Below, piece by piece: positions 246-57,500 of a stretch of 64,000 nucleotides of DNA. Origin of the DNA: a virus. The stretch lies in IMG/VR virus record IMGVR_UViG_3300037189_021352, positions 62,001 to 126,000 of that record; one strand, written 5' to 3'. The notes below the pieces were generated by a model. It saw only the letters and a program-made list of their open reading frames with translations, was not told where the DNA came from and made no database searches. Within the stretch, counting starts at the first letter, position 1. Every line of letters begins with the position of its first letter. The position numbers and the translations under genes were made by a program.

Positions 246-644
246 TTAAGATTTTTTTCTTATTTTAATTTTATGATCATCCTTATATCGCATGCCGTAT
301 GTTTCAATGTCCCAAAAGAATATCTTTAGAGGATTCTCTAATGCCTCAGGTTTATGTATTTCATCTCTAAAAGAAGAGAGAAGAAACTCCTGCTCGCAAC
401 TTAAATTGTGAAACAATCTCTTGATAGGAGTTTCGTTAACAAATTTGTTTCGTTCAAATTGATTTTTAAACTTAACTTTCTTTAAAGGTGTATTAAAGAT
501 AGATAATGCGTCTGCACCATAAGCGGATTCTACAAATAAATGCGGTTCGTAGCTAGATTCTAATTTGATTCTCTTTCCGTTTTTGTCCCATGTCCAGAGA
601 TGAATACATTGTTTAGCAGAATCATAAAAGACATTTCGATACAT
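246..644 (-). CDS. 43: DNA polymerase family B (gp43-like), N-terminal fragment
   Basis: 132 residues equivalent to the N-terminal domain and first exonuclease motif of a T4-type family B polymerase. The exonuclease I motif FFWDIETYG lies near residues 109-117, with the metal-binding Asp and Glu present. The reading frame stops 15 codons later, just after a run of seven A residues on the coding strand. The rest of the exonuclease domain continues in another frame (1-232). An intact family member is about 800-900 residues, so this is not a complete enzyme by itself. The ATG at 644 follows the stop of the upstream glycosyltransferase by two bases, so the two are probably co-transcribed. Confidence 0.8.
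   Translation of the reverse strand: MYRNVFYDSAKQCIHLWTWDKNGKRIKLESSYEPHLFVESAYGADALSIFNTPLKKVKFKNQFERNKFVNETPIKRLFHNLSCEQEFLLSSFRDEIHKPEALENPLKIFFWDIETYGMRYKDDHKIKIRKKS
252..258 (-). other. A7 homopolymer at the polymerase frame break
   Basis: A run of seven A on the coding (minus) strand lies between the two polymerase frames. Reading it as six A joins the frames and gives a continuous product through RKNLKLAQYMDES. In the downstream frame a stop codon lies directly upstream of the run, so the shift must occur within or just after it. This fits a homopolymer indel in the assembly, a genuine frameshift mutation, or +1/-2 recoding. Confidence 0.7.
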
Positions 645-646
645 GC

Positions 647-1963
647 TTATATTTTCTGATCTAAATTGAGGGAAATCAAGTTTGAACTTTTTAAATTTCG
701 TTCTTTAGATCCCCAATTTGTAAAATACATGGCCTCATATTCGTCTAAATGATCTTCTAACCACAATTTGTCCGTAAAATGATGAATATTTTTAGACAAT
801 TTCATGTAGCTATCAAAATCTGAAGTAATGTATTCTAATTGATTTATTAAATCTTTGCCGGATTTAAATTTTAACTCAGCTTCTTTATAGGTACACATGT
901 CTTGGAATACACCCGGCATACCAAATGCTCCAGATTCTACAATTTTAATGTTGCTCTTAGATCTGTTAAATACATTGTCCTGCAGTGGAGCAAAGGATGC
1001 TACACAATTTGCATCATATATAGCCTTGGGTAGGTCATATAAAGGAGACCATGGTAAAAATTCCATTTCACCATTATCTATAAAAGGTTTAACGGAAAGT
1101 GGAAAGGTACCTTTCCATACAAATTTAAATTTTTTACGAGCTTTAATGATTTCATCTACTACATGTGCAAAATCATCATTTAAACCGGTTCGATTTGCTA
1201 CATCTATATGTGTTCCAGAACCTGCATAGAGAATTCTTGGTCTCTTTTTATATTGATCATATAATTTTGCTATTCTATCTGGGTGATAGTAATGACCAAG
1301 CCATTGTTTAGGAGCATAATTAGGAATTACTGTCACTTTTTTGTTTCCAGTTTTATCAATATAATAATCTTTCATATATTGACAGGTGACAGTCATTTCA
1401 TCCATTAGTTCCATGATTTCTAAAATGGTATTTTCTACCTCTGAAGAAGCAAAGGCATCTTTACATCTATTATAATCTGGAATATCATTTCTAAAAACAA
1501 TATCATCTATTTCATAAACTAATTTATAACCTATTTGATTTTTATGTTTATGTAATTCTTGTATAAATGTTTTTTGAACCGGAGTGGCTTGTCTTTGCAT
1601 TCTTACACATTTAATATTTTGATAAAAACGCAAATCCAAAACCATGCTAGTTAATCCAGATATACATGCTTTTTGATAAGCATTTAAAGTAATTTCTGGC
1701 CAAATCATTCTCCAAAATCCACATCCACCATAATCTGCATAATAATTTAAAGCTCTTGGTAAAAGAGCTTCTTGCATCACAACTGGAGGAGCAGCTGGTA
1801 CGTGAACTGGTTTATAAGAAACATAAACTTTTTTTGGTAAAAATTCTTGATACGAACCTGGTGGTAAATGTGGGATAGATAATTCAGTAGGAGAATATTC
1901 ATAAACCACTTTATTACTCAAGTCTATCGAAGAATTGTCTGAGTTTTTTAATTTTAAAGCCAT
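647..1963 (-). CDS. Glycosyltransferase, GT-B fold (GT1/GT4-like)
   Basis: 438 residues. The C-terminal half looks like a GT4-type donor-binding domain: PRILYAGSGTHID (about 242-254), a helix-rich stretch, then DANCVASFAPLQDNVFNRSK and IKIVESGAFGMPGVF near 310-352. This is the usual E-x-x-A-x-G-x-P nucleotide-sugar site. The N-terminal part holds a DDIVFRNDIPDY element. It probably transfers a sugar from a nucleotide donor; donor and acceptor are unknown. It lies between queE and gene 43 on the same strand, away from the main glycan island, so it could act on DNA, a structural protein or a host glycan. No signal peptide or membrane segment is apparent, so it should be cytoplasmic. Confidence 0.75.
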   Translation of the reverse strand: MALKLKNSDNSSIDLSNKVVYEYSPTELSIPHLPPGSYQEFLPKKVYVSYKPVHVPAAPPVVMQEALLPRALNYYADYGGCGFWRMIWPEITLNAYQKACISGLTSMVLDLRFYQNIKCVRMQRQATPVQKTFIQELHKHKNQIGYKLVYEIDDIVFRNDIPDYNRCKDAFASSEVENTILEIMELMDEMTVTCQYMKDYYIDKTGNKKVTVIPNYAPKQWLGHYYHPDRIAKLYDQYKKRPRILYAGSGTHIDVANRTGLNDDFAHVVDEIIKARKKFKFVWKGTFPLSVKPFIDNGEMEFLPWSPLYDLPKAIYDANCVASFAPLQDNVFNRSKSNIKIVESGAFGMPGVFQDMCTYKEAELKFKSGKDLINQLEYITSDFDSYMKLSKNIHHFTDKLWLEDHLDEYEAMYFTNWGSKERNLKSSNLISLNLDQKI

Positions 1964-1994: not shown

Positions 1995-2747
1995 CTATAC
2001 TCGAAGAGCTTTATCCCATACCATTAAATGCAATCGAGGTGACATTTTAAAACCATATTCCTTGCAAATCTCTGCTACTTCTTCTGCATTTTGTACATGT
2101 TCCTGTCTTGAACCTGCACACACCATGATCCATATCCTATTTCGATGAATCATGAGAGAGGGATGATTGATGTATTCCACAAATAATTCTTGTATGTCTT
2201 CTTTTGTTTTGACCACAAATTTAAAACAAGACCTGTTTTTTACATGAAACTTCAACGCTTCTGTATTATATCTTTTTTCTTTAGCATCACCGTTGCTTGA
2301 AAGTTTGGGTGAGGTTGTAAAAGTGGCGTGATATTTGTCTATCCAATCTTTTTCCGGCAGAATAGAACCATTGGTTTCAAAATCTATCCTCGGTAAAAAC
2401 CCGTATCGATCCCAAAATGCTTGCACAAAATTTAAAAGAGGTTTTTGCCTAAGCATCGGTTCACCTCCTGTAATTTTCCATATATCACCTCTGCGAAGTT
2501 TGTCTACTAGACTGTTTTCTTCATAAAATTTAAACATGTCCTCAAAACTGTATTTGTTTTTCTTAGACCAAGAGATATAAGAGTCACATCCCCAAGGTGA
2601 ATCAGGAGAAGCCCAACCTTTACATGTTAAATTGCATCCAAATAACCGCATGAACACACTTGGATGACCTATATACTCTCCTTCTCCTTCAATAGTATGA
2701 AATCCGGGACCATCATCACTGATTAATAAATAATTTTCTTCTGACAT
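1995..2747 (-). CDS. queE: QueE-like 7-carboxy-7-deazaguanine synthase (radical SAM)
   Basis: 250 residues, close to the size of known QueE proteins. QueE converts 6-carboxytetrahydropterin to 7-carboxy-7-deazaguanine (CDG) with a 4Fe-4S cluster and SAM, the step before QueC makes preQ0. Visible motifs are FHTIEGEG (16-23), RLFGCNLTC (34-42), ITGGEP (91-96, the SAM-binding GGE motif) and DFETNGS. The cluster cysteines appear to be C38, C42 and C54, giving CX3CX11C rather than the canonical CX3CX2C. The extra segment is GWASPDSPWG. This differs from canonical QueE but keeps three cysteines. A matching QueC lies at 22900. It sits 9 bases from gene 46 and is probably co-transcribed with it. Confidence 0.88.
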   Translation of the reverse strand: MSEENYLLISDDGPGFHTIEGEGEYIGHPSVFMRLFGCNLTCKGWASPDSPWGCDSYISWSKKNKYSFEDMFKFYEENSLVDKLRRGDIWKITGGEPMLRQKPLLNFVQAFWDRYGFLPRIDFETNGSILPEKDWIDKYHATFTTSPKLSSNGDAKEKRYNTEALKFHVKNRSCFKFVVKTKEDIQELFVEYINHPSLMIHRNRIWIMVCAGSRQEHVQNAEEVAEICKEYGFKMSPRLHLMVWDKALRV

Positions 2748-4638: not shown

Positions 4639-5628
4639 TTAAGTCATCTGCTCTTTAATCCACCAGTATACATTATATATTCCTTTGTGTAAAGGGTAAT
4701 TTGGCTTCCAATTTAACTTCTTAAAAATTAAATCATTGTCTGAATTTCTGCCACGAACTCCAAGAGGTCCACTAATATGTTTTTTAACTAAGGTTTTATT
4801 TTCCATAGAAGCTGCCACATCAACAAGTTGATTTATGGTAATCATCTCATCTGATCCAATATTTAATGGTTCGGTAAAATCTGATTCCATTAATCTTCTT
4901 ACTCCTTCTATACATTCATCTATATATAAAAATGATCTGGTCTGTTCCCCATCCCCCCAGATTTCAATTTCTTCTCCGTCTTTTGCAGTCAATACTTTAC
5001 GGCAAATAGCAGCCGGGGCTTTTTCTCTTCCACCTTGCCAGGTACCCATTGGACCGAAAATGTTATGAAATCTGGCTATGCGAACATTTAGTCCGTGATT
5101 TCGAGCATATGCCAAATAAAGACGCTCACTAAATAATTTTTCCCATCCGTATTCGCTATCAGGTGCAGCTGGATAAGCGGATTCTTCAGAACATTTAGGA
5201 TTATTAGGATCTTCTTGATTATATGCCGGATACATACAAGCACTGCTAGAATAAAAAACTTTTTTGACATTGAATTGTCGGCACAATTCTGCTATATTCA
5301 GGTTAATTTGAGCAGAATTATGCATAAGATTTGCATCATTATTTCCACTAAAAATAAATCCAGCACCACCCATGTCAGCAGCTAGTTGATATACTTCATC
5401 AAAAGAATTTTCCTTTTCTTCTAAACTATGTTGTCCGGGGGCTAACATTAACAAAGAACTTGCTTTATAATCCCTCAAATCTGTTATAAAAAATTCATCT
5501 GCCTTTGTGGATGAAAATTCTGGATACTTAAGATCTGCTCCCCTCACCCAATATCCTTCTGTTTTCAGACGATTGATTAAATGATTACCTATAAATCCAC
5601 CTGCACCTAAAACTAAAGCTTTTTTCAT
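4639..5628 (-). CDS. GDP-mannose 3,5-epimerase-like NAD-dependent sugar epimerase
   Basis: 329 residues, extended SDR family. The Rossmann glycine motif GAGGFIG lies at 8-14. The segment AADMGGAGFIFSGN (83-96), SSSACMYPA (127-135), YGWEK (160-164), RFHNIFGPMGTW and GGREKAPAA (199-207) together match plant-type GDP-mannose 3,5-epimerase, including the catalytic Cys (C131) and Lys (K203) equivalents as well as the SDR Tyr/Lys pair (Y160, K164). GDQTRSF and NIGSDE-type motifs follow. The known reaction turns GDP-D-mannose into GDP-L-galactose or GDP-L-gulose. It is the last gene of the glycan island and would supply an activated sugar to the neighbouring transferases. GDP-mannose would have to come from the host or from genes outside the window. 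Confidence 0.85.
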   Translation of the reverse strand: MKKALVLGAGGFIGNHLINRLKTEGYWVRGADLKYPEFSSTKADEFFITDLRDYKASSLLMLAPGQHSLEEKENSFDEVYQLAADMGGAGFIFSGNNDANLMHNSAQINLNIAELCRQFNVKKVFYSSSACMYPAYNQEDPNNPKCSEESAYPAAPDSEYGWEKLFSERLYLAYARNHGLNVRIARFHNIFGPMGTWQGGREKAPAAICRKVLTAKDGEEIEIWGDGEQTRSFLYIDECIEGVRRLMESDFTEPLNIGSDEMITINQLVDVAASMENKTLVKKHISGPLGVRGRNSDNDLIFKKLNWKPNYPLHKGIYNVYWWIKEQMT

Positions 5629-5631
5629 AAT

Positions 5632-6177
5632 TTATTTTTTAATAACTAATAAACCCCTTTCACATCTTTCATTTGACAAACTACTTTTATTAAATATCAA
5701 ATGTTGGATGTTCTGATTTTTAACATACTCTATAATAGAATATAAATTTTTATAATCCACATTGGTTACATCATGATATATTAAAATTCCATCTTTTTTT
5801 AAAAGATTCAAAGTTTTATCAACCCATTTATCTGTGTTTTGATGATCCGCGTCTGAAACTATAAAATCATATTTTTCTTTACAATTAGAAACAAAATCAT
5901 ATTCATTAGAATTTATGAAGTTTATTGAAGTAATTTGTTTTATGTGTTCAAGGTTTTCTGGAGGATTGTGGTTCCAGTCTATAAAATTGTCTACGCAAGT
6001 TAAATCTAATTTTATTTGATTATATTCATACCCGGAAATAATTTTTCTGGTAGAAGCTCCACTACCTATACCAATTTCTAAACTTTTTTGAGGTTTATTG
6101 CAAATAATTAAAGAATAAATTAATTCTAAGTGATTATTGTCCATCATCACCCAATCTGAAGTATTATATAGTTTCAT
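5632..6177 (-). CDS. Class I SAM-dependent methyltransferase-like protein
   Basis: 181 residues with a Rossmann-type methyltransferase layout: SLEIGIGSGASTRK (motif I), CVDNFIDW (motif II acidic residue), YDFIVSDADHQ (motif IV) and LLKKDGILIYHDV (motif V/VI). It resembles the Methyltransf_24 group, which often methylates sugars or small molecules in glycan clusters. Its start overlaps the end of the GT8-like gene by 14 bases, and three bases separate it from the epimerase, so it is part of one transcription unit. The substrate is unknown; methylation of a sugar made by the island is an inference from context. Confidence 0.75.
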   Translation of the reverse strand: MKLYNTSDWVMMDNNHLELIYSLIICNKPQKSLEIGIGSGASTRKIISGYEYNQIKLDLTCVDNFIDWNHNPPENLEHIKQITSINFINSNEYDFVSNCKEKYDFIVSDADHQNTDKWVDKTLNLLKKDGILIYHDVTNVDYKNLYSIIEYVKNQNIQHLIFNKSSLSNERCERGLLVIKK

Positions 6178-6850
6178 AAAAATGTTTGTAGTCTGCTTCT
6201 ATAATTGAAATTTTATTTTCTTGCCCGGCATAATGAATTATATTGGCTTCATAACGTTTATTTTCCGGATCCGGTAAACCCATATGTATTTTGTTATAAG
6301 AAATATCCATTTCTTTATAGGGAATTTTACTTTTTACCACCAAATAATTTAAATAAGTTTGATCCCCAAATGAAAGAATGTTGTCTATATTTGGTATATT
6401 TTTATAATCTTCAAAATATTTTTTATGTAAATGAGAAACCAGAAAAACACCTGCATTAAAATATTTGTATTTGTTGAGATGGTTTAAAGGCCATGTTTCA
6501 CAGTGTGGTAATAAGGGCTCCACAAAATCTTGTCTGCACATTTTATCAAGATTTCTATTTTCTTCAAAAGCATAAAAATAATTCTTATCATTATATTCTT
6601 CAAATATATTTTGAGCATGTGGGGTCACCAAAACATCTATATCTGTATAGCACACTTGTTCATAATCATTTAACAAATGTACAAAATTAAATTTTTCAAA
6701 GAAAATATTGGGTCCGTTTACTGTACGTTCTAATATTAGATGAAAATCTATGTCATATTTTTGACAGTATTTTTTTAAAGAAAGAACACTTTTATTATAA
6801 TCTTTATCTGCACCATCTATACCCAGAGTCATTATGGCATGTTTTTTCAT
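6164..6850 (-). CDS. GT8-like glycosyltransferase
   Basis: 228 residues, GT-A fold. The YTDIDVLV segment (about 68-75) carries the DxD metal/nucleotide-sugar motif. KYFNAGVFLV follows, then FGDQTYLNYL, a conserved GT8 acceptor-side motif, and IIHYAG near the C terminus, where GT8 enzymes place a metal-binding His. It should be a retaining transferase using a nucleotide sugar. Donor and acceptor are unknown. No signal peptide or transmembrane segment is seen, so it should act in the cytoplasm. It overlaps the next gene by 14 bases and follows a methyltransferase gene by three bases. Confidence 0.75.
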   Translation of the reverse strand: MKKHAIMTLGIDGADKDYNKSVLSLKKYCQKYDIDFHLILERTVNGPNIFFEKFNFVHLLNDYEQVCYTDIDVLVTPHAQNIFEEYNDKNYFYAFEENRNLDKMCRQDFVEPLLPHCETWPLNHLNKYKYFNAGVFLVSHLHKKYFEDYKNIPNIDNILSFGDQTYLNYLVVKSKIPYKEMDISYNKIHMGLPDPENKRYEANIIHYAGQENKISIIEADYKHFYETI

Positions 6851-6853
6851 GAA

Positions 6854-7360
6854 TTATTTTTTAGAAGCTACACAAATAAAGGAATAATTTAAATCTTTTT
6901 CACTTACAAAAATAGTTTCTTTATCTAAAAATTTATTATCTTGTAAATATTTTTTTAAAATATTGGGTTCAAAACAATGAATATGTTTACGATTATTCCA
7001 AGGCCTCCAATATTCTTGGTCAAAATGTGGAAGATATAAAAACAAAACTCCACCAGATTTTAATTTTGAAACCCAATAATCCAAAGCATTTACCCAATGT
7101 GGTAAGTGTTCTAGGCAGTGACTTGAAAAAATATAATCTATTTCACCTTGCGGCAAAAAATATGCATCATACCTTTTGTCTAAAAGAGGATCTATGGGTA
7201 TGGAACCTGGAAAAGACCATTCCACACGATTACATCCAATATCATATCCTTTTCCTTTACAAAAATGTTTAGCAAATGGAAAGGCAAATTGAGAAGCAAA
7301 CCCCTCAGACTGAAATTTAGGATATAATTTTTGATTAAATTCTATTGTGTCAATTTTCAT
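6854..7360 (-). CDS. SAM-dependent methyltransferase-like protein (Methyltransf_11 type)
   Basis: 168 residues. A GKGYDIGCNRVEWSF segment stands for motif I, IDPLLDKRYDAY for the region after strand 2, and DYIFSSHCLEHLPHW for the motif IV region typical of Methyltransf_11 proteins. SGGVLFLYLPHFD follows as motif VI. Motif I lacks the usual second glycine, so activity is not certain. It is shorter than average (usual domain about 200-240 residues). It overlaps the upstream methyltransferase-like gene by 11 bases. A sugar or lipid-like acceptor within the glycan island is a reasonable inference. Confidence 0.65.
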   Translation of the reverse strand: MKIDTIEFNQKLYPKFQSEGFASQFAFPFAKHFCKGKGYDIGCNRVEWSFPGSIPIDPLLDKRYDAYFLPQGEIDYIFSSHCLEHLPHWVNALDYWVSKLKSGGVLFLYLPHFDQEYWRPWNNRKHIHCFEPNILKKYLQDNKFLDKETIFVSEKDLNYSFICVASKK

Positions 7361-7961
7361 AAATCACAGCAACTCTTCTGCCATATTGAGTATATTCAAT
7401 GTTGTAATTTTTATTGATATCTAAAAGAGCTGTCTCCATTTCAATTTGAGTAGGCCATCCGGGTGTTCCAGCATCAAACGTATCATCTATTATAATAACA
7501 TGATCTTTTCTGTTGGAAAAATTTTTAATAGATTTAAGCTCCTCTATCACCGGTGACTCACTAGTGTGTGCGTCTAATAAAATAAAAAATTGTTCATTAG
7601 GATTTTGAGATAGAATATTTTTTAAAAAAATTGGAGAATCTCCTTCATAAAAGTTAATATTTGGATGATTTTGTTTTAAAATTTTATAATTCTCTAACAA
7701 ATTTATGTCTCTATTGTATATGTTACCTTTAACATATTTTTCAACTGTAAAAACTTCTTTAAATTGTATTGCTAAAAATTCTGATGTCCAACCTTCATAT
7801 GTACCAGTTTCTATAGCTTTATTAATATTTAATAAACTTGGAATTTTGTCTTTAAATAAAAAAAGAATTTGCACAAAAGGGTTGGCCACATCCACACACC
7901 ATGGATGAGGAATTGTTCGATGCCATCGCGGATCTTCGGGATCTGATTTGATATATTTCAT
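7350..7961 (-). CDS. Methyltransferase-like protein (class I Rossmann)
   Basis: 203 residues. AIETGTYEGWTSEFLA (motif I-like), VFTVEK (acidic end of strand 2), FFILLDAHT (motif IV) and HVIIIDDTF suggest a class I SAM methyltransferase of the Methyltransf_24 or cephalosporin-hydroxylase-like type. The LDAH segment could bind a metal, as in catechol-type O-methyltransferases. The substrate is unknown. The N terminus (PRWHRTIPHPWCVDV) has no motif I recognise. It overlaps its downstream neighbour by 11 bases and is separated by four from the GT9-like gene, so it belongs to the same unit. Confidence 0.6.
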   Translation of the reverse strand: MKYIKSDPEDPRWHRTIPHPWCVDVANPFVQILFLFKDKIPSLLNINKAIETGTYEGWTSEFLAIQFKEVFTVEKYVKGNIYNRDINLLENYKILKQNHPNINFYEGDSPIFLKNILSQNPNEQFFILLDAHTSESPVIEELKSIKNFSNRKDHVIIIDDTFDAGTPGWPTQIEMETALLDINKNYNIEYTQYGRRVAVIYEN

Positions 7962-7965
7962 AAAG

Positions 7966-8670
7966 TTAATTCATTTTTGTAAAAGATTTGTTAAAAATAT
8001 AATCTATTTCTGTCCAATCTCCAGGACGACGAGACGTAATTTCTATAATTTTTGTCTTTAAATTTAATTTTTCTATAAAAAAATTAATACAGGTATCCAT
8101 AGAATAAATGCCTGTAGCATTTTCCAAAACTTTACACCAATCAAAAATAGAATATCCTTTTATAAATTGCATTTCTACACATTTCACATCTTTTGGATAT
8201 TGTATATCCCATTCTAGGATATTTGGCGGTGATGCAAATTTTTTATTTACAAAAATATATTCTTCATCCTCTTTTAAATTTAAAATGTTATAAAACAAAA
8301 AATCTTCTTTGCTTTTATTGCGCTCAAATGTAAAAAAATTTAACCAGTCTTTAAATGTTAAATTAATTAAATTGTATTTTGATTCTAATATTTTTTTATG
8401 TAAAAGATGACTGGCGTTTTCTAATGGCAAGAACAATATTTCATCATTATCTATAATTCCGGTATTTTGGTAATAATTTTTACCAGGAAAATCTAATTCT
8501 TTATTAACAAACCAAATACCATTTTTTATATAATTGCTAATATCTGAGTATTCCTCTATAACCGGCCAAATAACCGGAGTATTATATTTTTCTATTATTT
8601 TCACGCCAATTTTTTGACAAAAAATAATATCACCCAATCCAGCTGGTTGTTTAATTAAACAAAATTTCAT
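7966..8670 (-). CDS. Putative glycosyltransferase, GT9-like
   Basis: 234 residues from the ATG at 8670; a TTG three codons upstream is also in frame. The N terminus KQPAGLGDIIFCQKIG resembles the glycine-rich start of GT9/heptosyltransferase-like proteins. The segment ATGIYSMDTCINFFIEKL resembles the GT9 donor motif, in which an S-x-D-T-x-x-x-H is followed by a helix. The usual His of that motif is not visible here. The protein is shorter than typical GT9 enzymes (300-350), so it may be divergent. Its neighbours are a tandem-domain GT2 protein and a methyltransferase-like protein. Function is inferred mostly from those motifs and context. Confidence 0.5.
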   Translation of the reverse strand: MKFCLIKQPAGLGDIIFCQKIGVKIIEKYNTPVIWPVIEEYSDISNYIKNGIWFVNKELDFPGKNYYQNTGIIDNDEILFLPLENASHLLHKKILESKYNLINLTFKDWLNFFTFERNKSKEDFLFYNILNLKEDEEYIFVNKKFASPPNILEWDIQYPKDVKCVEMQFIKGYSIFDWCKVLENATGIYSMDTCINFFIEKLNLKTKIIEITSRRPGDWTEIDYIFNKSFTKMN

Positions 8671-8675
8671 TTTAA

Positions 8676-9905
8676 TCAAACATTTTTTACAGTTCTGAAT
8701 TCATAGGTATATATAGGAGCCTCTATATAAACTTCTGTTGTCAATAGTGGTAACAATCTCTCTGAATAATCTCTATCTTCTCCTACACTAATATCCGGAT
8801 ATCCTATCTTTAAAGCCAATTCTCTCTTAACTGGATTCAGGTGATTGGGGTTTCTGTAATAAAATCTCCAAGAAGGATCTTCACTCGGTTCATCATACCA
8901 ATTTTTATATTTTAAAGAATGATAAGTTTTACCGGAAAGTCCACCATCTGTTTTCATTATAAGATGCATACCAACAACATCTGGATTAGACTCTATGGCT
9001 CCTAATATAGCAGATATGTAATTTTCAGAAACTTGATCATCATCATCTACAAAACATACATAATCTCCTACAGCATTTTCTAAAAGTTTTTGCCGCTTTT
9101 TACCTATGCTTAGTTCACCCTTATCTATATCACACAACACTTCCACTTCTTTTCTGGCTTGTGGGCGTAGGATACTAATAAGTCTGTCTAAAAAAGTTCG
9201 GCGTCTTTCCAAGGAACATATTAATATGGAAAGTTTTTTGATGCCAAAATTCTTCTTTTCTCTGGTTACAAAAATTTGTTTATCGTAAGTTGTATTTTGA
9301 AAATTTAAAACATGTATAATGTCATTTTTTCCATAACCCCAATGAGGATGCTGATGTTCTATAATAACTGTATCAATGTATGTTTGTTTTTTTAAAATAT
9401 TACCAACTGTTGTAAATTCATTATCAGCCCATTCAGATTTATATTCAGGATAATAGATGTAATTAAATCTTTGATAGTATTTTTTGCCTAAAATACTTAA
9501 AGTGTTTAATTCATTCTTTTTATGTCCATCATTATAAAATAAAATTCCATCTGTGTCAGGATAGTATTTTTGCATATCCTCTCGAATAATTTCATCATAA
9601 CCTTGAATTTGTGGAATCATGTCATCACTAGCTAATAAAATGATGTCATAGTGATAATCTATTTTATCCAGGTCTCTATTGACTGCATCTATTTTAGATT
9701 TAGAATCACCGAAAATGAATGTCAAATTGTTATAAGTTTTAAGTTTGTCTACAACTGATTGATTATTCATGGTCTGGTCTACAGTGTCTAGCGTAACCAA
9801 ACAATGCATCTTTTCCGTGTTAGATGCCATACTATAATATAAATCTAATGTATTGAAAAATTTTTCAGGGCGATTAAAAGTGGGAAATTTTAATAAAATG
9901 TTCAT
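8676..9905 (-). CDS. Two-domain GT2-like glycosyltransferase
   Basis: 409 residues with two GT-A-like halves. The first starts LLKFPTFNRPEKF and has an acidic site IILLASDDMIPQ near residues 89-100. The second starts KLSILICSLERRRTF at about residue 224, and YVCFVDDDDQVSENYI is its DxD site. NPDVVGMHLI and KIGYPDISVGEDRDYSERL follow; the GED segment is a common GT2 acceptor/base region. The second half looks catalytically complete, while the first is more divergent. It abuts the next gene (stop at 9906). Donor and acceptor are unknown. Two transferases in one chain suggest two consecutive sugar additions, or one active and one binding domain. Confidence 0.75.
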   Translation of the reverse strand: MNILLKFPTFNRPEKFFNTLDLYYSMASNTEKMHCLVTLDTVDQTMNNQSVVDKLKTYNNLTFIFGDSKSKIDAVNRDLDKIDYHYDIILLASDDMIPQIQGYDEIIREDMQKYYPDTDGILFYNDGHKKNELNTLSILGKKYYQRFNYIYYPEYKSEWADNEFTTVGNILKKQTYIDTVIIEHQHPHWGYGKNDIIHVLNFQNTTYDKQIFVTREKKNFGIKKLSILICSLERRRTFLDRLISILRPQARKEVEVLCDIDKGELSIGKKRQKLLENAVGDYVCFVDDDDQVSENYISAILGAIESNPDVVGMHLIMKTDGGLSGKTYHSLKYKNWYDEPSEDPSWRFYYRNPNHLNPVKRELALKIGYPDISVGEDRDYSERLLPLLTTEVYIEAPIYTYEFRTVKNV

Positions 9906-11381
9906 TTAAAATATAATTTTTAGATGTCTATAATCTTGATTATTAGATACCTCTATAATTTCTAAATTAGGAAGGGAATTCACTCCATCTTTTTTATGAT
10001 AATCTCTGGATAGTTGGTTATTTAAGAATGCTCTAAACCGTGCTCCATTTTTTTCATGCAATTCATTCTCAGATTGACTAGAAAGACGGTGAGGATGAGG
10101 CTCACTAAAAAATTTTCCAAATGGATGCTTATAAGGTGTTAGATTTTCTCTAACACATCTTTCATACAAGTCATCATCTTCCTTACCCCAACCAAAATAT
10201 TCATTACTATATCCATTAACTTGTAAAAAATGTTCACGAGTAAAAAGAATTACACCGCCCATGATTTTATCCGGAATATTGATGTAATTAAATTGACTGC
10301 AGTGACTACTAATATGAGAAGGCCTTTCCGGAAAACTGTAATCAGAAACTTCTGGTATTAAATCAACATCATGAAAGCACATATAGTCTCCGGAAGATTT
10401 TAAAAAACCTATATTATTAAGAAGACCTTTATTGAATGGTTTGTCGTTATTTTGTTCTATTAATAAAATTTCATATTGTTCTACCTGTTTAGAAACATAT
10501 ACATGAAGGGCTGGTATGATTTTCTTTAAAGCTGACTCTCTATTTCTATATGGAATAATGATAGATAATTTTTTATTATGATTAATTATTTTTTTCTTGC
10601 TATAAAGGCTTTGAAGATCTATTAATTTTAACAACAGACTTCTAAGATCTACGTTTTCTATAGTATTAGTAAATTTGCCCCATTTTTTAGTAAAAAATTC
10701 TGCTGATTTATTCCAATTTTCTAGATATTTTTCTTTATTGGTTATAGTTGAATTTTCACTGCTTCCGTTTATATCTGAAAGATATTTTTCACTATCCAAT
10801 AAATCTGGAAAATACCAAAAAGGAGGTGCTACATTTTTTTGAATTAAATTATAAGCAAAATCTATGTGTTCAAAAGCATTGATGTAATTTTCATCAAATT
10901 CACCCAATTTAGAAATTAAATTGGCGTGTATATACATAAATGCACCTTGTGGATTGTGGTAAAATCCAATTTTAGTCCCGTCTGGTTGTTCCAAAACAAA
11001 TTTTAAAGTGTTTTGATTATTAGCTATTTTTTCAAAACACAAATGATGTATTCCCGTAGAACTAGCTGCTTTAATATATGCTTCAAAAACATTTGGATCT
11101 TTAATAAGAATGTCATCTTCTATAAGAAATAAATGTTTGCAACCTTTATTAATAAGATATTTTAAGAGTAAATTTTTGCTTTTAGCTACACCTTTTTGCG
11201 TGTTATTTAAAATGATATGATCTATGTCTAACTGTGGCAAAGCATAACTCAGCTCTCCGTCATTAACAACTGCAAGTGTTCCTATTTTATTTCTAGGAAC
11301 ACTTGCCAAGACCTGCTGATAATATTCTGGTCTATTATAGGTCAATATACCTACACCTATTTCAGATGGTGAGATTTCCAT
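9906..11381 (-). CDS. Bifunctional glycosyltransferase: GT2-like plus GT7 (beta-1,4-galactosyltransferase-like)
   Basis: 491 residues. Residues 1-240 form a GT2-like domain: IGVGILTYNRPEYY at 8-21 and LFLIEDDILI with an EDD at 88-90. Residues 272-460 resemble beta-1,4-galactosyltransferases: IIPYRNRE (274-281), FHDVDLIPE with DVD (about 337-341), GGVILFTREHFLQVNGYSNE, then GWGKEDDDLYER (397-408), which corresponds to the family's GWGGEDDD signature. In that family the enzyme moves galactose or N-acetylgalactosamine from a UDP donor to a GlcNAc-type acceptor. The N-terminal domain is a paralogue of the two genes just upstream. The start overlaps the upstream gene by 25 bases, suggesting translational coupling. 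Confidence 0.85.
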   Translation of the reverse strand: MEISPSEIGVGILTYNRPEYYQQVLASVPRNKIGTLAVVNDGELSYALPQLDIDHIILNNTQKGVAKSKNLLLKYLINKGCKHLFLIEDDILIKDPNVFEAYIKAASSTGIHHLCFEKIANNQNTLKFVLEQPDGTKIGFYHNPQGAFMYIHANLISKLGEFDENYINAFEHIDFAYNLIQKNVAPPFWYFPDLLDSEKYLSDINGSSENSTITNKEKYLENWNKSAEFFTKKWGKFTNTIENVDLRSLLLKLIDLQSLYSKKKIINHNKKLSIIIPYRNRESALKKIIPALHVYVSKQVEQYEILLIEQNNDKPFNKGLLNNIGFLKSSGDYMCFHDVDLIPEVSDYSFPERPSHISSHCSQFNYINIPDKIMGGVILFTREHFLQVNGYSNEYFGWGKEDDDLYERCVRENLTPYKHPFGKFFSEPHPHRLSSQSENELHEKNGARFRAFLNNQLSRDYHKKDGVNSLPNLEIIEVSNNQDYRHLKIIF

Positions 11382-12187
11382 ATTTGTTTTAAAGAGTCTA
11401 ACATATCTTTTTCAGAAGTAAAGGTTTCAGGAGGTCCATAGTTTGTGACTATAGAAAATTTGTTCTTTTTTATAAAAATATCTAAATTTTTTTTAAAATT
11501 TTCCATAAAATCTTGCTCAGATCTTATTTTACTTTGTTTGTGATCAGAAACTATGTCTTTAATGTAATTGGATGATCCTTTGACATCTGCAAACCATCTG
11601 AAAGGAGGGTGATACCCTTTCTTACTAATTTGCAGAGTATGATCTACGTGTTCCAGAGCATTGAAAAAAGATTCATCCATAAATCCTACATTTTCCAGTA
11701 CCTCTTTATGAAAATAACTTAATGCTCCAAGAATATTGGGATAGAGATCTATAACAGTGCCGTCGGGATAATTAACACTTTTACGGATAATAACATTTCC
11801 ATTGTGATCAAGATTATGGTTTCCGTGTAATCCGAAATTAAAATGTTTAATGCCTGTAGATTTGCTAGCGTTAATATAAAAATTAAAAACATCTTCATTT
11901 ACAATTTCTACATCATCTTCTAATAGAAAAATATGTTCATAACCCTTGTCTAGAAAAAACTTCAAAGCTAAATTTTTGGCCTTACCTACCCCAATTTTAC
12001 CAGGAGTTTTAATATATTTGTTAAAAAAAGATGATATTGGAGTATTTTCCACTCCATCATCTATTATAACTGTGCAAATATTAAAATGTTTGTTAATGAC
12101 TTTCTTTAAAGAAGCTTCACAAATTTTAAAAAAATTGGGTCTATCGCAGGTAATAATAGCAACACCTATATTATAATTCTCTAGCAT
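11357..12187 (-). CDS. GT2-like glycosyltransferase
   Basis: 276 residues from the ATG at 12187, chosen because it puts IGVAIITCDRPNFF six residues from the start, as in its paralogues. An in-frame upstream ATG at 12238 would add 17 residues inside the neighbouring gene. IFLLEDDVEIVNEDVF carries the acidic site. KSTGIKHFNFG, NALEHVDHTL and GYHPPFRWFADV match the order SSTGIHHLCFE, NAFEHIDFAY and APPFWYFPDL of the gene at 9906. It has a single domain and lacks the GT7 half. It is probably a nucleotide-sugar transferase of the island; specificity cannot be read from sequence. Confidence 0.75.
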   Translation of the reverse strand: MLENYNIGVAIITCDRPNFFKICEASLKKVINKHFNICTVIIDDGVENTPISSFFNKYIKTPGKIGVGKAKNLALKFFLDKGYEHIFLLEDDVEIVNEDVFNFYINASKSTGIKHFNFGLHGNHNLDHNGNVIIRKSVNYPDGTVIDLYPNILGALSYFHKEVLENVGFMDESFFNALEHVDHTLQISKKGYHPPFRWFADVKGSSNYIKDIVSDHKQSKIRSEQDFMENFKKNLDIFIKKNKFSIVTNYGPPETFTSEKDMLDSLKQIWKSHHLK

Positions 12188-12911
12188 ATTTTTTTTGTAT
12201 TTCTTCCATAGCCAAGAACATTTGATTGGCTGAAACACCTACTGGATCATTTTGACCCGGTATATATTGGTGTTTGTTATAAAACAAACCAAAGCTCAAC
12301 TCAGCACTGCGTTGTTCTGTGGTGTTGACTTTATTCAATTTAACAACAGCTTTATAAAGCCCTTGATTCATGCAGGGATTGAAATGGTTAGGAGGATATA
12401 TACCATCTTTGCGCAGTCTTAAGATATAATCTAATGTATCCAATTGATTGTTACTGTAAAAATGTTCATTAAAATAACCATATCTTTTTATCAAGTTGGA
12501 ATATAAAAAAATAACATCAGCATTTAGCTCTGGTGTTATTTCCAAAGAAAGTTGTTTCTCTTCATCATCTACAACTAGAGTATCAGAACCGGGACCAGTC
12601 ATCATCCAAACTCCAAAATTAGACGCTTTTTTTAAAGTGTTATCAAAAAAATCTACATCTGTAATAGCATAATTTGAATTTATTAAAAATAAAAATTTTT
12701 TTTCTAATAATCTAAAATAAGCAATTAATCGATTTTTTAAAGCCGCAAAAGAAACTTCTCTGTCAAATCTTTCACCCTTAATCGGTAATTTGTTATTAGT
12801 ATTAGATACTATATAAACATTTTCTTTTAATTGTTCTGGTATAGAATTAAAACAATTATTTAATTCAATTTGTCCGTAAACATCTATAATTCCTATTCCA
12901 ATTTTATTCAT
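12171..12911 (-). CDS. Divergent GT2-like protein, probable degenerate paralogue
   Basis: 246 residues. The layout follows the two transferases downstream: an IGIGIID start at 4-10, a KFLFLINSNYAITDVDFF segment where the others have an EDD site, KKASNFGVWMMTG, NADVIFLYSNLIKRYGYFNEHFY and KDGIYPPNHF. The acidic DDD/EDD donor site is replaced by NSN, so sugar transfer is doubtful. It may be a structural or regulatory partner, or a decayed copy. Its end overlaps the start of the next gene by 17 bases, and two bases separate it from gene 47. No other family was recognised. Confidence 0.55.
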   Translation of the reverse strand: MNKIGIGIIDVYGQIELNNCFNSIPEQLKENVYIVSNTNNKLPIKGERFDREVSFAALKNRLIAYFRLLEKKFLFLINSNYAITDVDFFDNTLKKASNFGVWMMTGPGSDTLVVDDEEKQLSLEITPELNADVIFLYSNLIKRYGYFNEHFYSNNQLDTLDYILRLRKDGIYPPNHFNPCMNQGLYKAVVKLNKVNTTEQRSAELSFGLFYNKHQYIPGQNDPVGVSANQMFLAMEEIQKKYAREL

Positions 12912-22899: not shown

Positions 22900-23643
22900 A
22901 TGGATAGTGCAAACAACGACAAGATTTGTGTAGTTTTATATAGTGGAGGCATGGATAGTACTGTAGTTTTGCATCATGCTTTAGCAAACTATAACAAGGT
23001 TTATGCCCTAGCTTTTGATTATGGACAGAGGAACATAAGAGAATTGACCGGAGCTGAAAATTACATCACAAATTATATTTTAAAATCTTCTTATGCAGAG
23101 AAATTAAAGTATTCTCGTATGCCCTTACCGGTAAAATTTTTAAATTTTAATTCTGCATTAACAGATGAGAATATAGAAGTGCCTAAAATGAAAGAGGTTA
23201 TTGGTGATCCACAAAATGTAGCGTATGTTCCAAATAGAAATATGATTTTTTTGTCCCTAGCGGTGGGCATGGCGGAAAGTGTCGGCGCGCCTGATGTTTT
23301 ATATGGAGCAGCCAAGGCTGACGACACTTCAGGTTTTTGGGATTGTACACCAGATTTTAGAAATTATCTTAACACTATTCTTTCTCTTAATCGTAGAAAT
23401 CGTATAGAGATTAAAACTCCTTTAATAGACAAAACAAAAAAAGAAATTATCGAATATGGTTTAGAATTGGGTGTAGAGTTTGGTTGGACAAGAACCTGTT
23501 ATACAGAACATGAAAATTCTTGCGGAGAATGTCCAAGTTGTTCGGCTCGAATTGCCGGTTGGTTACATACAGGTAAGATAGACCCATTGAAATATTCTAG
23601 AGAAATTGATTGGCAAAAATATAATTGTCAATCAATATACTAA
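22900..23643 (+). CDS. queC: QueC-like 7-cyano-7-deazaguanine synthase
   Basis: 247 residues. It converts CDG and ammonia to preQ0 using ATP. The PP-loop is SGGMDST (15-21). AFDYGQRNIREL (38-49) and AYVPNRN (108-114) are typical QueC motifs. The zinc site is C200, C208, C211 and C214 (CGECPSC). The protein looks complete. It lies immediately before a class II glutamine amidotransferase with only the stop and one codon between them, in the same frame. Together with QueE at 1995 this gives two steps of 7-deazaguanine synthesis; QueD and GTP cyclohydrolase are not in the window and may come from the host or elsewhere. Confidence 0.93.
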   Translation: MDSANNDKICVVLYSGGMDSTVVLHHALANYNKVYALAFDYGQRNIRELTGAENYITNYILKSSYAEKLKYSRMPLPVKFLNFNSALTDENIEVPKMKEVIGDPQNVAYVPNRNMIFLSLAVGMAESVGAPDVLYGAAKADDTSGFWDCTPDFRNYLNTILSLNRRNRIEIKTPLIDKTKKEIIEYGLELGVEFGWTRTCYTEHENSCGECPSCSARIAGWLHTGKIDPLKYSREIDWQKYNCQSIY

Positions 23644-23646
23644 TAT

Positions 23647-24279
23647 ATGTGTGGCATAGCAGCAGCTCCAACGTTTGAAAAGGCTTTTAATTTATACAGA
23701 TTAAATTTACATCGAGGCAGTTATTCTTCTGGCTTAATGTCTGTAGATACTAAGACAGGTGCTTATTTTATATATAAACAACAAAAAGCATTTGAAGAAA
23801 TAGAATCTTTGCTTTGGAAGATAGAACAAAGTAGAAATAATTTTGATTACTTTCTTTTTCATTCAAGAGCCCCCACCAACAGCACAGAAACACTATGGAC
23901 TGCAGAAACTACTCATCCTTTTGCATATGATAATTGTCATGTAGCCCACAATGGTATTATTACAAATTTTCAAGAACTTAATAAAGATTTGAATTTTAAT
24001 GTAGACACACAAATAATACCATACAATCTAATAAAGACATACAATATACAAGAAACATATTCCAACTTGCAAGGATTGCTTACTAGTTGGATAGTTTGGG
24101 GTAAAGATGTACATGTAATTAAAGCTGGTAGCTCTTTATGGATGGACAAAGATTCTTTTTCTTCTTCAAAATTTGAAGGTGCTCACTACATAGAGGAAGA
24201 CGGTGTAATATTTAATTATATTAATAATAAATTTGAAAAAAGTGGAACATTTCCTTATACAAGTACATATTTTATATGA
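23647..24279 (+). CDS. Stand-alone class II glutamine amidotransferase (Gat), probable Gat-QueC partner
   Basis: 210 residues, only the glutaminase domain. The nucleophile is C2 after Met removal (MCGIAAAP). HRGSYSSG (22-29), FHSRAPTNS (71-79, Arg for glutamine) and CHVAHNGIITN with the HNG at 101-103 (oxyanion hole) match N-terminal-nucleophile amidotransferases. No synthetase domain follows, unlike GlmS, PurF or AsnB. In Crenarchaeota and in phage 9g a Gat domain fused to QueC makes archaeosine from preQ0. Here the two are separate neighbouring genes in reverse order, which suggests ammonia delivery for a preQ0 or G+-type modification. The next gene overlaps its stop by four bases. Confidence 0.8.
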   Translation: MCGIAAAPTFEKAFNLYRLNLHRGSYSSGLMSVDTKTGAYFIYKQQKAFEEIESLLWKIEQSRNNFDYFLFHSRAPTNSTETLWTAETTHPFAYDNCHVAHNGIITNFQELNKDLNFNVDTQIIPYNLIKTYNIQETYSNLQGLLTSWIVWGKDVHVIKAGSSLWMDKDSFSSSKFEGAHYIEEDGVIFNYINNKFEKSGTFPYTSTYFI

Positions 24280-24962
24280 AAAAAATAACAGCAGTAATTG
24301 CCACACAGGCAAAATCTATTCAAGAATTTGAAAAACGACCCATTTTTAAATCTTTACAACGACATCATGATTCTAAAGATTTATTTTCAGCTGGTAAATT
24401 TGATTTTGTCTTAGTTAAAGACAATAAAGAGGGGTTGCCTAAAGTGTATAATAAATTTTTGCAAGATTCTAAATATCAAAAAGACATTCTTTTATTTGTT
24501 CATGATGACGTTGAATTAGAAGATTTGTTTTTGATAGAAAAATTGCAAAATTCACCCTACGAGGTTACCGGTTTGGCTGGTACTAAAAAAGCAAATTTAA
24601 ATAAACCACCCGGCTGGCATTTAATGAGCACAAAAGAAGACTGGGTAGGTGAAGTAGCCCATGCTGATTCCTCTGGAGTTTGGACGACAGTTTTTGGTCC
24701 AACTAATTCCAGGGCTTTATTAATAGACGGACTTTTTATAGCAGTAGATGTTAAAGCTATAAATGAAAAAAATGTTTCATTTAATGAAAAATTTGAATTT
24801 CATCATTATGATTTATCTTTTTGTTTAGATTGTAACAAAGCCAAGGTAAAAATAGGAGTTTTGCCTATTAGAGTCATACATCACGGTTTGGGCGACAGTA
24901 TGCTTTCAGAAGAATGGAAAGTTAGTGCTGAAATCTTTAAACAAACCTACGGTACAAATTAA
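24276..24962 (+). CDS. StrF-like glycosyltransferase (GT2-like, Glyco_tranf_2_5)
   Basis: 228 residues. Features of the StrF-type GT-A group are ILLFVHDDVELED (acidic donor site near 70-82), VTGLAGTKKAN, VWTTVFGP, LLIDGLFIAVDV, then FHHYDLSFCLDCNKAKVK and IRVIHHGLGD (the last His region is conserved). It should transfer a sugar from a nucleotide donor. It overlaps the amidotransferase gene by four bases (ATGA) and lies between it and the DUF366 gene, so it is part of the deazaguanine transcription unit. It might glycosylate a modified base or another target; that is an inference. Confidence 0.7.
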   Translation: MKKITAVIATQAKSIQEFEKRPIFKSLQRHHDSKDLFSAGKFDFVLVKDNKEGLPKVYNKFLQDSKYQKDILLFVHDDVELEDLFLIEKLQNSPYEVTGLAGTKKANLNKPPGWHLMSTKEDWVGEVAHADSSGVWTTVFGPTNSRALLIDGLFIAVDVKAINEKNVSFNEKFEFHHYDLSFCLDCNKAKVKIGVLPIRVIHHGLGDSMLSEEWKVSAEIFKQTYGTN

Positions 24963-24984: not shown

Positions 24985-25578
24985 ATGAGTAGATCAAAAA
25001 TATACAAAGATGAAGATTATGATGGATCTTTGATTCACGGACGATTTGGGTATAAAATTTTTCGTAAGAATTATAATCCATTAGGGGTGATTCATATTAC
25101 CAGGGGCAATATGGATGTTAAAGACAATTTAATTGATTTAGAAGATAAATTAACAAATGATTTCATTTACTCCGAAGATGCTTTGAGTATTTGTTGGGAG
25201 ATTCCTAACATGAATCCGACAGGAGCTGTATTCTTTCAAAGACTTTTTATGCAAGAAATTGCTAATCTTTTTAGAACAGATCAATTCGGAATTTACGATC
25301 TTTATGTTGACGGAGATGATTTAATGTTGCGTAAAAAAGGCATGGGTGAAAATAACAGAGAAGAATTCGGTAAGGCCAGTGTCAGTATCACTAAGGTAAC
25401 AGACAATATTGCACTGGGTCATATTGGTATCAACATCTCCGCAGGATCAAGAGCTCCTAGTTTTGCTTTTTCACTATATTTGACAGATGAAAAAGTAGAT
25501 GAATTGGCCAGTGTAATTGAAGAAATTTTCTATGATATTCTTCAAGATTGTTTTATAGCTACTACCAAGGTGATTTAA
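24985..25578 (+). CDS. DUF366 family protein
   Basis: 197 residues from the ATG at 24985, chosen because MSRSKIYKDEDYDGSLI aligns with the family's YDGS start. An upstream frame from 24925 overlaps the transferase gene. It follows archaeal DUF366 (for example the Pyrococcus PH1223 protein) in YDGSLIHGRFGYKIF, HITRGNMDVKDNLIDLED, the DALSICWEI region and SITKVTDNIALGHIGINIS. The family's function is not known to me. The position two genes after the Gat-QueC pair, coupled by TAATG to the next gene, suggests a role near 7-deazaguanine metabolism. This is an inference from context only. Confidence 0.75.
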   Translation: MSRSKIYKDEDYDGSLIHGRFGYKIFRKNYNPLGVIHITRGNMDVKDNLIDLEDKLTNDFIYSEDALSICWEIPNMNPTGAVFFQRLFMQEIANLFRTDQFGIYDLYVDGDDLMLRKKGMGENNREEFGKASVSITKVTDNIALGHIGINISAGSRAPSFAFSLYLTDEKVDELASVIEEIFYDILQDCFIATTKVI

Positions 25579-25981: not shown

Positions 25982-26365
25982 ATGATAGATAGACCTGTAA
26001 ATTTAGAAGATCGAATTGGAGGCAAAATAGAAATAGAACATTATCAGGGCAATGATTTTGAATTAGAAGATTGGGTATTAGATAAGGTATTAGATAATAT
26101 TTTAATGGTTCAGTATGTGGACATTAATGAGGCCGGCACAGAAATTAAAAGAGGTAGTTTATGGATACCTATCGGAGCAGTTCAACATACTTGGAGGGTT
26201 GCTAAAGTTATTAAAGCCGGACCGGATTGTAAAACTGTAAAAGAAGGAAATTATATTGTTTTTCCTAATGATAGAGGTTTAAAAGTGGCAAATCTTAACG
26301 GATTAAAAAATGTAGCTTTCTTGAATGAAGACCGTATTTTTGGGGTCTGTAATCCAAAGATATAA
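25982..26365 (+). CDS. GroES-like co-chaperonin (gp31-type)
   Basis: 127 residues. The C-terminal part follows the GroES pattern by eye: VLDNILMVQYVDINEAGTEI, RGSLWIPIGA, WRVAKVIKAGPDCKTVKEG, NYIVFPNDRGLKV, then AFLNEDRIFGVC, corresponding to the GroES barrel with its mobile loop (about 47-60). T4 gp31 replaces GroES on host GroEL to fold gp23. A 35-residue N-terminal extension (IDRPVNLEDRIGGKIEIEHY) is not typical. It is placed among replication genes, not near gene 23. Function is likely but not proven. Confidence 0.6.
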   Translation: MIDRPVNLEDRIGGKIEIEHYQGNDFELEDWVLDKVLDNILMVQYVDINEAGTEIKRGSLWIPIGAVQHTWRVAKVIKAGPDCKTVKEGNYIVFPNDRGLKVANLNGLKNVAFLNEDRIFGVCNPKI

Positions 26366-54591: not shown

Positions 54592-57500
54592 ATGAATTCT
54601 TTATCTGCTAATGGTGAAATAAAAATAACAGACCTCAGCCCGGCCAGAGATTTAAGGGCCAGTGATTTATTCATAGCAGCCACTCATCTTGATGGTTCTG
54701 CGGATATAACTACACAATCTGTTTCTTCTTGTGTACTTTTAAAGTATATTTTAGCCAACGGAGCATATAATTTTGCACCAGATCTTTCTAGCATCGGCGC
54801 TCATACTTGTAATCCTTCATTATATGGTAGTTTTGTATGTGATGTTAACTCTAAACATTTTACTATAATTCCTTCTCATCCATTACCTATATGTGAACCT
54901 TCTTTTGAAGCTCCTAATTTAGGCACAGATTCTTATTATTCTAACATTGGCGGTGGTGTGGGAAATATTGTTTGGGGTTTAGAGACAACCATTGGTGGTG
55001 GATGTCGTAATGTGGTAATGGATAGTAATTCTGTTATTGCTGGGGGGAAAAATAATTTTATTAATTGTTGCGGCTCCACAATTGCTGGGGGTGAAGACAA
55101 TACCAGTTGTGATATCTACACATCCATAGGTGGTGGAAATAATAACTTAATTAATCAAGTAGGTGGAACTATTGCCGGTGGAGAATACAATTATATTACT
55201 CAACCAGCAGGAGAAGATACAAATTATCAAGGAGCTGCTATAGTAGGAGGTTCTTGTAATGCCTTATCTGGATGTTTTGCTTTTATAGGTGGTGGATATC
55301 ATAATTCGGTACAACAAAACCACTCTTCTATAGTTGCAGGAAATTGTAATTTAATTTCTTCTTCTTTCAGCACAATTGGTGGTGGGCAAAATAATATTAT
55401 ATCTGGAAATTGTGGAGTTATAGGAGGAGGTTCTTTCAATCAATTAATATGTAACGGATCTATTATTGCTGGTGGAGATCATAATAGCACCGCTGGAGAT
55501 TATTCAACAATTGGTGGTGGGAACTATAATTCTGTACAAAATTGCTTTTCTCAAATTGGCAATGGTGAACATAATTGCATAACCGGAGTTAAGTCTGTTA
55601 TAAATTCTGGTACAGAAAATTATATAGCAGGTGATTATGGTTTTGTAGGAAATGGTTTTTGCAATACTGCTAATTCTAATTTTAACATTATAACTAATGG
55701 AATGTATAATAATTCTGTTAGTGCTCATGCTACTATCATTAACGGTATTTGTAACAATACAATAGGAGACAAAGCCACCATTATTAACGGATGTCTTAAT
55801 TCCGCAACATCAGATTACACTTTAATAGGTAATGGATGTAATAATGCATCCTCTGGCACAAATTCAACAGTTATTAATGGTATTTGCAACTCTTCTTCTG
55901 GTTGCAATAGCTTAATAGGTTCTGGTTGTAATAATCTAGCATCGGGATTTGAATCTCTTGTACTCAACGGAAATAATAATTCTTCTCACGGAATTAATAG
56001 TTCTATAATTAATGGATTTTCTAATTCTTTAAGTGGCAATTTAGCATCTATTATTAACGGTAGTAATAACTCTGCTATTGGCAATTGTAGTTTGATAGGC
56101 GGCGGTGCTTATAATAATACAAACGGGGTTTATTCTATTGTTGTTAATGGTTGCTGTAATATAGCATCTGCAAATCATGCTTCTGTAAATAATGGTTATT
56201 GTAATATTGCCAGCGGAGTCAATGCCACTGTTGTTAATGGTACATGTAATACTTCCTCCGGTAATTATAGTTTAATAATTCAAGGTTCGTGTAACTCTTC
56301 TCAAGGAATTAATTCAACTATAATAAACGGGTATTGTAATACTGCTGTTGGAAATAATAGTTTTATAATCGCTGGCTGTTGTAACCTTGCTCTTGGTAGC
56401 AATTCTTCTGTTTTTACGGGCTGTAAAAATATATCTATATGCTCCAGCGGTTCTATAATATCTGGTTTTAGCAATACGGTATCTGCTATTCAGGCTACAA
56501 TAGTTTCTGGCTCTAACAATTTAGCCACTGGTTACAACAGCTTAATAGTTTCTGGATGTAATAATAGTACTGGTAACACTTCTTCAATTATTCTTGGTGG
56601 GTGTTTTAATACCTCTAACGGAGCCAATAGCTTAATAACTGCAGGTTGTAGCAATGTTACACTTGGAACAAATTCCACAATTATCAACGGTGTCTGTAAT
56701 GCTTCACAAAGCAATTACAATTTGATAGCCAGTGGATGTTGTAATACAGTTACGAACAATTATTCTATTGTCCTAGGAGGGTCTAATAATTGTGTAAATG
56801 GTGCATCTAGTTCTATTATAAACGGAACTGCTAACTTTTCTCCCGGATCCGGTAGTTTAATAGGATCTGGTAATTGTAACTCTTCTTGTGGAGCAAATTC
56901 TTCTGTTTTAAATGGAAATTGTAATACTTCTTCTGGCAATTGCAGCACTGTAATAACTGGTTATTGTAATACTGCTTCTAATAATAATTCAGTTATTGTG
57001 GCTGGATGTTGTAATAATATAACAAGTGAGTATAGTATTATTAATAATGGCAAATGTAATTCTATTTCCGGCAATTATTCTGTTATAGCTGGCGGTTCAA
57101 ATAATATTGCTGCTGGAGTTTGTAGTATTGTATCTGGCGGCTATGGAAATTGTGCTTTAAATCCAATTTCTTTAATAGTTGGTGGTTATTGTAATGTTTC
57201 TTCGGCAAATGGTAGTTCTATAATAGGTGGCAACTGCAATATCTCTTCTGGAACAAATTCTGCCATTATAAACGGTTGTTATAACAATGTTTCCGGAAAA
57301 TGTAGTATAATCGGCAGTGGTTGTTGTAATCTAGTAACCAATGATTATTCTATTATAATTTCCGGGCGTAATAATTTTTCTTGTGGTAGCAATGATTTGA
57401 TAGGAACTGGATTTTTTAATTCTTTATCCGGTTCAAATTCTACTATAATCAACGGTGGATATAATTCAATTAATGGAAATTTTGCTTTAATAGCTGCTGG

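Follow-up and report, generated by a model that had tools for sequence, protein, structure and literature searches.

What does a free-standing glutamine amidotransferase contribute when its gene directly follows that of QueC, the 7-cyano-7-deazaguanine (preQ0) synthase? The question is raised by a stretch of 64,000 nucleotides (hereafter, the window) that comprises positions 62001–126000 of the linear, 128,659-base (128.7 kb) IMG/VR virus record IMGVR_UViG_3300037189_021352. On the plus strand of the window, queC (22900–23643, 247 aa) precedes a gene (23647–24279, 210 aa) for a stand-alone class II (Ntn) amidotransferase, denoted here Gat and presumed to be the partner of QueC. The junction reads TAC-TAA-TAT-ATG-TGT, so that the two genes share a frame and are separated by one codon after the TAA, precisely as described in an earlier note on this DNA.

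The first gene encodes a QueC, as indicated by matches to the Pfam QueC profile (E-value 1.8e-53), to phrog_1550 (2.2e-59) and to NCBIfam TIGR00364, where the score of 164.6 bits passes the curated equivalog cut-off of 150.3, as well as by the intact PP-loop SGGMDS and four intact zinc cysteines (TCYTEHENSCGECPSC). The preQ0 synthase motifs and the zinc site are common to the window protein and canonical QueC of the E. coli and phage CAjan type; the canonical enzymes, however, use free ammonia and have no amidotransferase partner, whereas the window QueC has Gat for a neighbor. Among the QueCs of relatives, there is a clade that lacks the CxxCxxC zinc cysteines and mostly contains instead a conserved stretch like TCYSNREDGLADATTPSSSLR (L032, L045, L048, L053, L055, L056, L062, L063, L066, L068, L075-L077, L079 and L091); most of these genes are located about 1.1–2.3 kb or more upstream of Gat.

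Judging from matches to GlmS-type profiles (1e-6 to 1e-13), along with phrog_4736 (2.6e-13) and PRK00331 (7.7e-7), and from the catalytic residues, Gat is clearly a class II amidotransferase; the match to Pfam GATase_6 (2e-4, 21.7 bits) stays below the curated cut-off of 27. A cysteine directly follows the initiator methionine, and the glutamine-site residues (C2, R23, H72/R74/T77, N102-G103, D120) are present. The catalytic elements that the earlier note listed as complete recur among the relatives: C2, R23-G24, H72, P76-T77, H90, N102-G103 and D120 are invariant in 60 of the 60 distinct sequences. The exception is position 74, which corresponds to the glutamine-binding arginine of related enzymes and is R in 17 sequences, including the window Gat, and Q in 43. 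In one relative (L015), the Gat gene at 4307 begins with ATT-TGT after an AGGAGG-like sequence, so that either ATT serves as the start codon or the sequence contains an error.

This phage is not alone in having the arrangement. Gat is encoded in 51 GenBank phage records (duplicates included), among them KVP40, nt-1 and pf16, where it is mostly annotated as "hypothetical protein", and QueC is directly followed by Gat in KVP40 (KVP40.0124/0125), nt-1 (exsB/ORF392), F86, pf16, 6E35.1a and 2.275.O; in these phages, the pair is found among genes for FolE, QueD, QueF and DpdA2. A profile scan of IMG/VR yielded 275 relatives of Gat. In the fetched stretches around the best 80 of these 275, QueC is encoded on the same strand in 66, at a distance of 50 bp or less in 24; in the remaining 14, no QueC was seen in the vicinity of Gat, several of the stretches concerned being short or ending with the contig. 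The association thus extends far beyond chance neighborhood. A scan of genome contigs produced only five matches, two with QueC alongside Gat in draft-genome contigs that are possibly viral. For QueC, Gat and the glycosyltransferase encoded next to them (see below), dN is well below dS, that is, QueC and Gat are a real gene pair that evolves under purifying selection. A scan for regulatory signals showed promoter-like sites at roughly the frequency expected from shuffled sequences and revealed no terminator-like site.

The common frame of the two genes is a different matter. Among 23 distinct adjacent pairs, the genes overlap by one base at one extreme and are 36 bases apart at the other; only 3 pairs share the frame, which is therefore a chance feature of this genome. 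Class II amidotransferases need their catalytic cysteine at a free N-terminus, with the consequence that a fusion must have Gat first, that separate queC and gat genes can come in either order, and that readthrough at this junction would yield a dead amidotransferase with a buried cysteine. The readthrough fusion envisaged by the earlier note is accordingly rejected, given that the frame is not conserved and the cysteine has to be N-terminal.

Nor is the interpretation of the pair as a split, reversed Gat-QueC supported. The Gat-QueC fusions of phages 9g, JenP2 and Vid5 and of Crenarchaeota consist of the same two components, a class II amidotransferase and a QueC domain, and the fusion-carrying phages share with the window phage the DpdA-dependent 7-deazaguanine modification of DNA, which is predicted for the latter; the fusions differ, however, in being single polypeptides with Gat first, the definition of a Gat-QueC archaeosine synthase, whereas the window has two genes with QueC first. 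Both domains of the fusions also belong to a branch separate from that of the window pair. In trees in which the fusions were represented by four from phages, the stand-alone Gats and their QueCs did not group with the fusion proteins, and forcing the window Gat into a group with these four was rejected (AU test, p = 0.005), so that descent from these phage fusions is rejected. An organizational analogy, and only an analogy, is the two-gene archaeal GMP synthase, where the ATP-pyrophosphatase and the amidotransferase likewise come from separate neighboring genes, although that amidotransferase is of class I and the substrate is different (PMC13329287).

Irrespective of descent, the pair might still perform the reaction of the fusion, converting preQ0 to the formamidine G+, so that the phage DNA would carry dG+; the earlier note named this product alongside preQ0, and we consider the route rather unlikely. 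Together with DpdA, the 9g fusion makes dG+, and it does so also in E. coli with a mutated queC; nt-1, which has the same pair as the window phage, contains traces of dG+ (both PMC6884629); the lack of a detected QueF in the record, which is possibly incomplete, would fit as well. The separate grouping in the trees argues against this route, as does the motif of the window QueC, which is of the canonical type (DDTSGFWDCTPDF) and differs from that of the fusions (NLEEAGAYPDNEPEF).

The co-occurrence with QueF in many phages also speaks against it. QueF is a preQ0 reductase and so consumes preQ0, and it is encoded together with Gat in pf16, 6E35.1a, G006, G007, G013 and G023, which points to a role of Gat in preQ0 supply. 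In a Schizotequatrovirus with QueF, the base measured in the DNA was dPreQ1, at about 15% (PMC12028318); MW824377, which we take as the record of that phage, carries Gat, and phage 6E351A of that study is, by its name, presumably 6E35.1a of GenBank. With QueC, Gat, QueF and dPreQ1 in one such relative, Gat most likely feeds ammonia to QueC, and archaeosine is not required. In nt-1, where the QueC-Gat pair comes without QueF, the DNA contains mostly dPreQ0, alongside which dADG and dG+ occur in trace amounts, the dG+ being ascribed by the authors to ArcS; Gat is not mentioned in the part of that paper available to us (PMC6884629). The window pair, then, is probably not an archaeosine synthase.

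Much of the rest of the pathway is encoded in this record. QueE is encoded on the minus strand of the window (1995–2747; phrog_2076, QueE-like, 1.5e-48, below the NCBIfam QueE cut-offs); its cysteine spacing, CX3CX11C, reflects an insert before the third cysteine. Taken literally, the statement of the earlier note that the window encodes no transglycosylase is correct; a DpdA (271 aa, minus strand, record 59075–59890), however, is encoded about 2.1 kb before the first base of the window. A search of the rest of the genome, which the note had proposed, thus produced DpdA and also QueD (minus strand, record 56274–56750), whereas neither FolE nor QueF was found in the 128.7-kb record, which might be incomplete. 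DpdA, QueD and QueE are also encoded in all five searched records larger than 190 kb, two of which are near-copies. With QueC and these three genes in one record, the suggestion of a 7-deazaguanine modification pathway that includes QueC and a separate amidotransferase holds up, and the modification very probably concerns DNA.

The DpdA belongs to phrog_19058, a family of unknown function, and shows 42% identity to a protein of a Flavobacterium phage (immuto) that carries the annotation DNA guanine transglycosylase (DpdA); its identity to gp056 of Campylobacter phage CP220 is about 35%. This subfamily is divergent: the Pfam TGT family (PF01702) had no match in the record, a profile-profile comparison with DpdA2 showed no useful similarity, and a search of PDB sequences with the DpdA alignment gave no match, so that we turned to fold prediction. 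The predicted structure of a homologue (L111) that is 58% identical to the DpdA of the record (pLDDT 95) has its best PDB matches to TGT (9e-8) and to the DNA preQ0 insertase DpdA (7ui4, 2e-5), and through this homologue, the TGT fold can be assigned to the DpdA of the record. In the alignment of the family, the aspartates of two motifs, DxSxFEL and DTSxP, do not vary and presumably are equivalent to the catalytic aspartates of TGT. Compared with 7ui4, the DpdA of the record thus has the same fold and conserved aspartates in apparently matching motifs but is short (about 270 aa) and falls into a distinct subfamily, close to the immuto and CP220 proteins.

These observations bear on the possibility that the pathway serves the host tRNA, supplying queuosine precursors, instead of the phage DNA. 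For some phages that have preQ0 genes but no DpdA, a boost of host queuosine has indeed been proposed (PMC6884629); here, however, the fold of the DpdA homologue, which comes nearest to those of TGT and of the DNA preQ0 insertase, the presence of the family in all large relatives searched and the annotation of the Flavobacterium phage homologue as a DNA guanine transglycosylase make this explanation very unlikely. The short DpdA subfamily is widespread, with at least 572 matches in IMG/VR, and includes CP220 gp056 (L009, 10001–10777) and its relatives, all annotated as hypothetical, although the Campylobacter phages with dADG were grouped as lacking DpdA in PMC6884629. In G002 (L104) and L152, the DpdA region contains one internal stop codon within the matched stretch.

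The explanation that, in our assessment, best accounts for the whole of these data, with a probability of roughly 0.6, is that QueC and Gat together form a glutamine-dependent preQ0 synthase, either as its two subunits or as closely cooperating proteins, and that the base is inserted into the phage DNA by DpdA. Under this scheme, the first step (FolE) would probably be provided by the host, QueD and QueE would make the precursor, Gat would hydrolyze glutamine and pass the ammonia to QueC, and QueC would convert 7-carboxy-7-deazaguanine to preQ0 in two ATP-dependent steps. The TGT-fold DpdA would then place the base in the DNA, the likely product being dPreQ0 or a derivative, which might protect the DNA from restriction. 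Supply of glutamine-derived ammonia to QueC is most likely the role of Gat and the simplest reading of the pair; it is weakened by the fact that Gat is not required for this chemistry, given that QueC elsewhere uses free ammonia. We further count against it the dG+ traces in nt-1, the prevalence of Q at position 74, the loci without QueC, and the failure to find FolE and QueF in the record.

The third gene of the locus (24276–24962, plus strand), the ATG of which overlaps the stop codon of gat, encodes a GT-A-fold glycosyltransferase. It matches Pfam Glyco_tranf_2_5 (PF13712; 3.4e-8, 33.9 bits, above the curated cut-off of 27), and its AlphaFold2 (AF2) model (pLDDT 93.8) is closest to 2qgi, a UDP complex (8.3e-10), followed by GalNAc transferases. 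A homologue is found near Gat in 67 of the best 80 loci among the 275, in neighborhoods that otherwise differ. No match was detected among 50,697 GenBank phage records in a single-sequence search, and profile searches of cultured, QueC-encoding relatives did not find the gene. Hence two lineages can be delineated: one with QueC, Gat and the glycosyltransferase, represented only by uncultivated phages, and the other, including KVP40, pf16 and others, with QueC and Gat, mostly accompanied by QueF.

Given that the glycosyltransferase accompanies Gat about as often as QueC does (67 and 66 of these 80 loci, respectively), that some loci have Gat and the glycosyltransferase without QueC in reach, and that the gene order varies (two orders, with QueC-glycosyltransferase-Gat, for example, in L050 and L067), Gat might work mainly with the glycosyltransferase, the two of them making a sugar group that contains nitrogen or attaching it to the deazaguanine of the DNA. 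We regard this as quite improbable because Gat remains next to QueC in the KVP40/pf16 lineage, where the records contain no homologue of the glycosyltransferase, and because Gat lacks a sugar-isomerase domain. The variable order does indicate that the three genes stay together without a fixed arrangement.

With Gat assigned to preQ0 synthesis, the glycosyltransferase would probably modify the base further or act in the same pathway; it might glycosylate the modified base. That the phage DNA carries a glycosylated 7-deazaguanine produced by the module as a whole, with DpdA inserting the deazaguanine and the GT-A enzyme adding a sugar, is a tentative and still doubtful proposal, and no such base has been reported in the literature examined. 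Elsewhere in the window (647–1963 and 4639–12911), there is a run of genes that, as read from the translations, resemble glycosyltransferases, methyltransferases and NAD-epimerases and might provide a sugar supply. The gene downstream of the glycosyltransferase (25000–25578, plus strand) encodes a DUF366 protein (PF04017, 1.6e-16), a questionable member of the module that is conserved only in closer relatives (in 23 of the 85 loci scanned).

The papers examined (PMC6884629, PMC13329287, PMC12028318) describe Gat-QueC fusions as well as branches within the QueC family; a free-standing class II amidotransferase paired with QueC does not feature in them, although a prior report is possible. The three-gene set, seen in dozens of uncultivated, T4-like phages and only there, is, as far as we found, likewise undescribed as a unit. 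For a "hypothetical" protein of KVP40, nt-1 and related phages, the pair offers a testable role, namely, in a proposed form of preQ0 synthesis that is fed by glutamine, and it cautions that not every combination of QueC with an amidotransferase is an archaeosine synthase; the conserved glycosyltransferase in the cassette could lead to deazaguanine DNA that bears sugars.

By its major capsid protein, which is about 34% identical to those of cyanophage-type relatives, the phage falls among the T4-like marine phages. Phages of the KVP40/nt-1 type, which infect Vibrio, are similarly T4-like, have separate queC and gat genes that follow each other in this order on the same strand and overlap or almost touch, and possess preQ0 genes, a DpdA and a co-chaperonin gene downstream. 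In the window, the latter is a GroES-like gene at 25982–26365 (plus strand; Pfam Cpn10, 0.009, below the cut-off), a synteny marker, given that gp31 of KVP40 is likewise located shortly downstream of QueC-Gat. The KVP40/nt-1 type differs in having a DpdA of the DpdA2 type, mostly with QueF and without the glycosyltransferase, and a Gat, annotated as hypothetical, that is only about 27% identical to that of the window. DNA polymerase B of the window phage appears to be split into a 780-aa part (record 59890–62232) and a 132-aa part (window 246–644) with a 13-base gap, which is either natural or a sequence error. At the other end of the window (54592–63498), a 2968-aa tail-fiber-like protein contains long runs of NGxxNxxSGxNS-type repeats.
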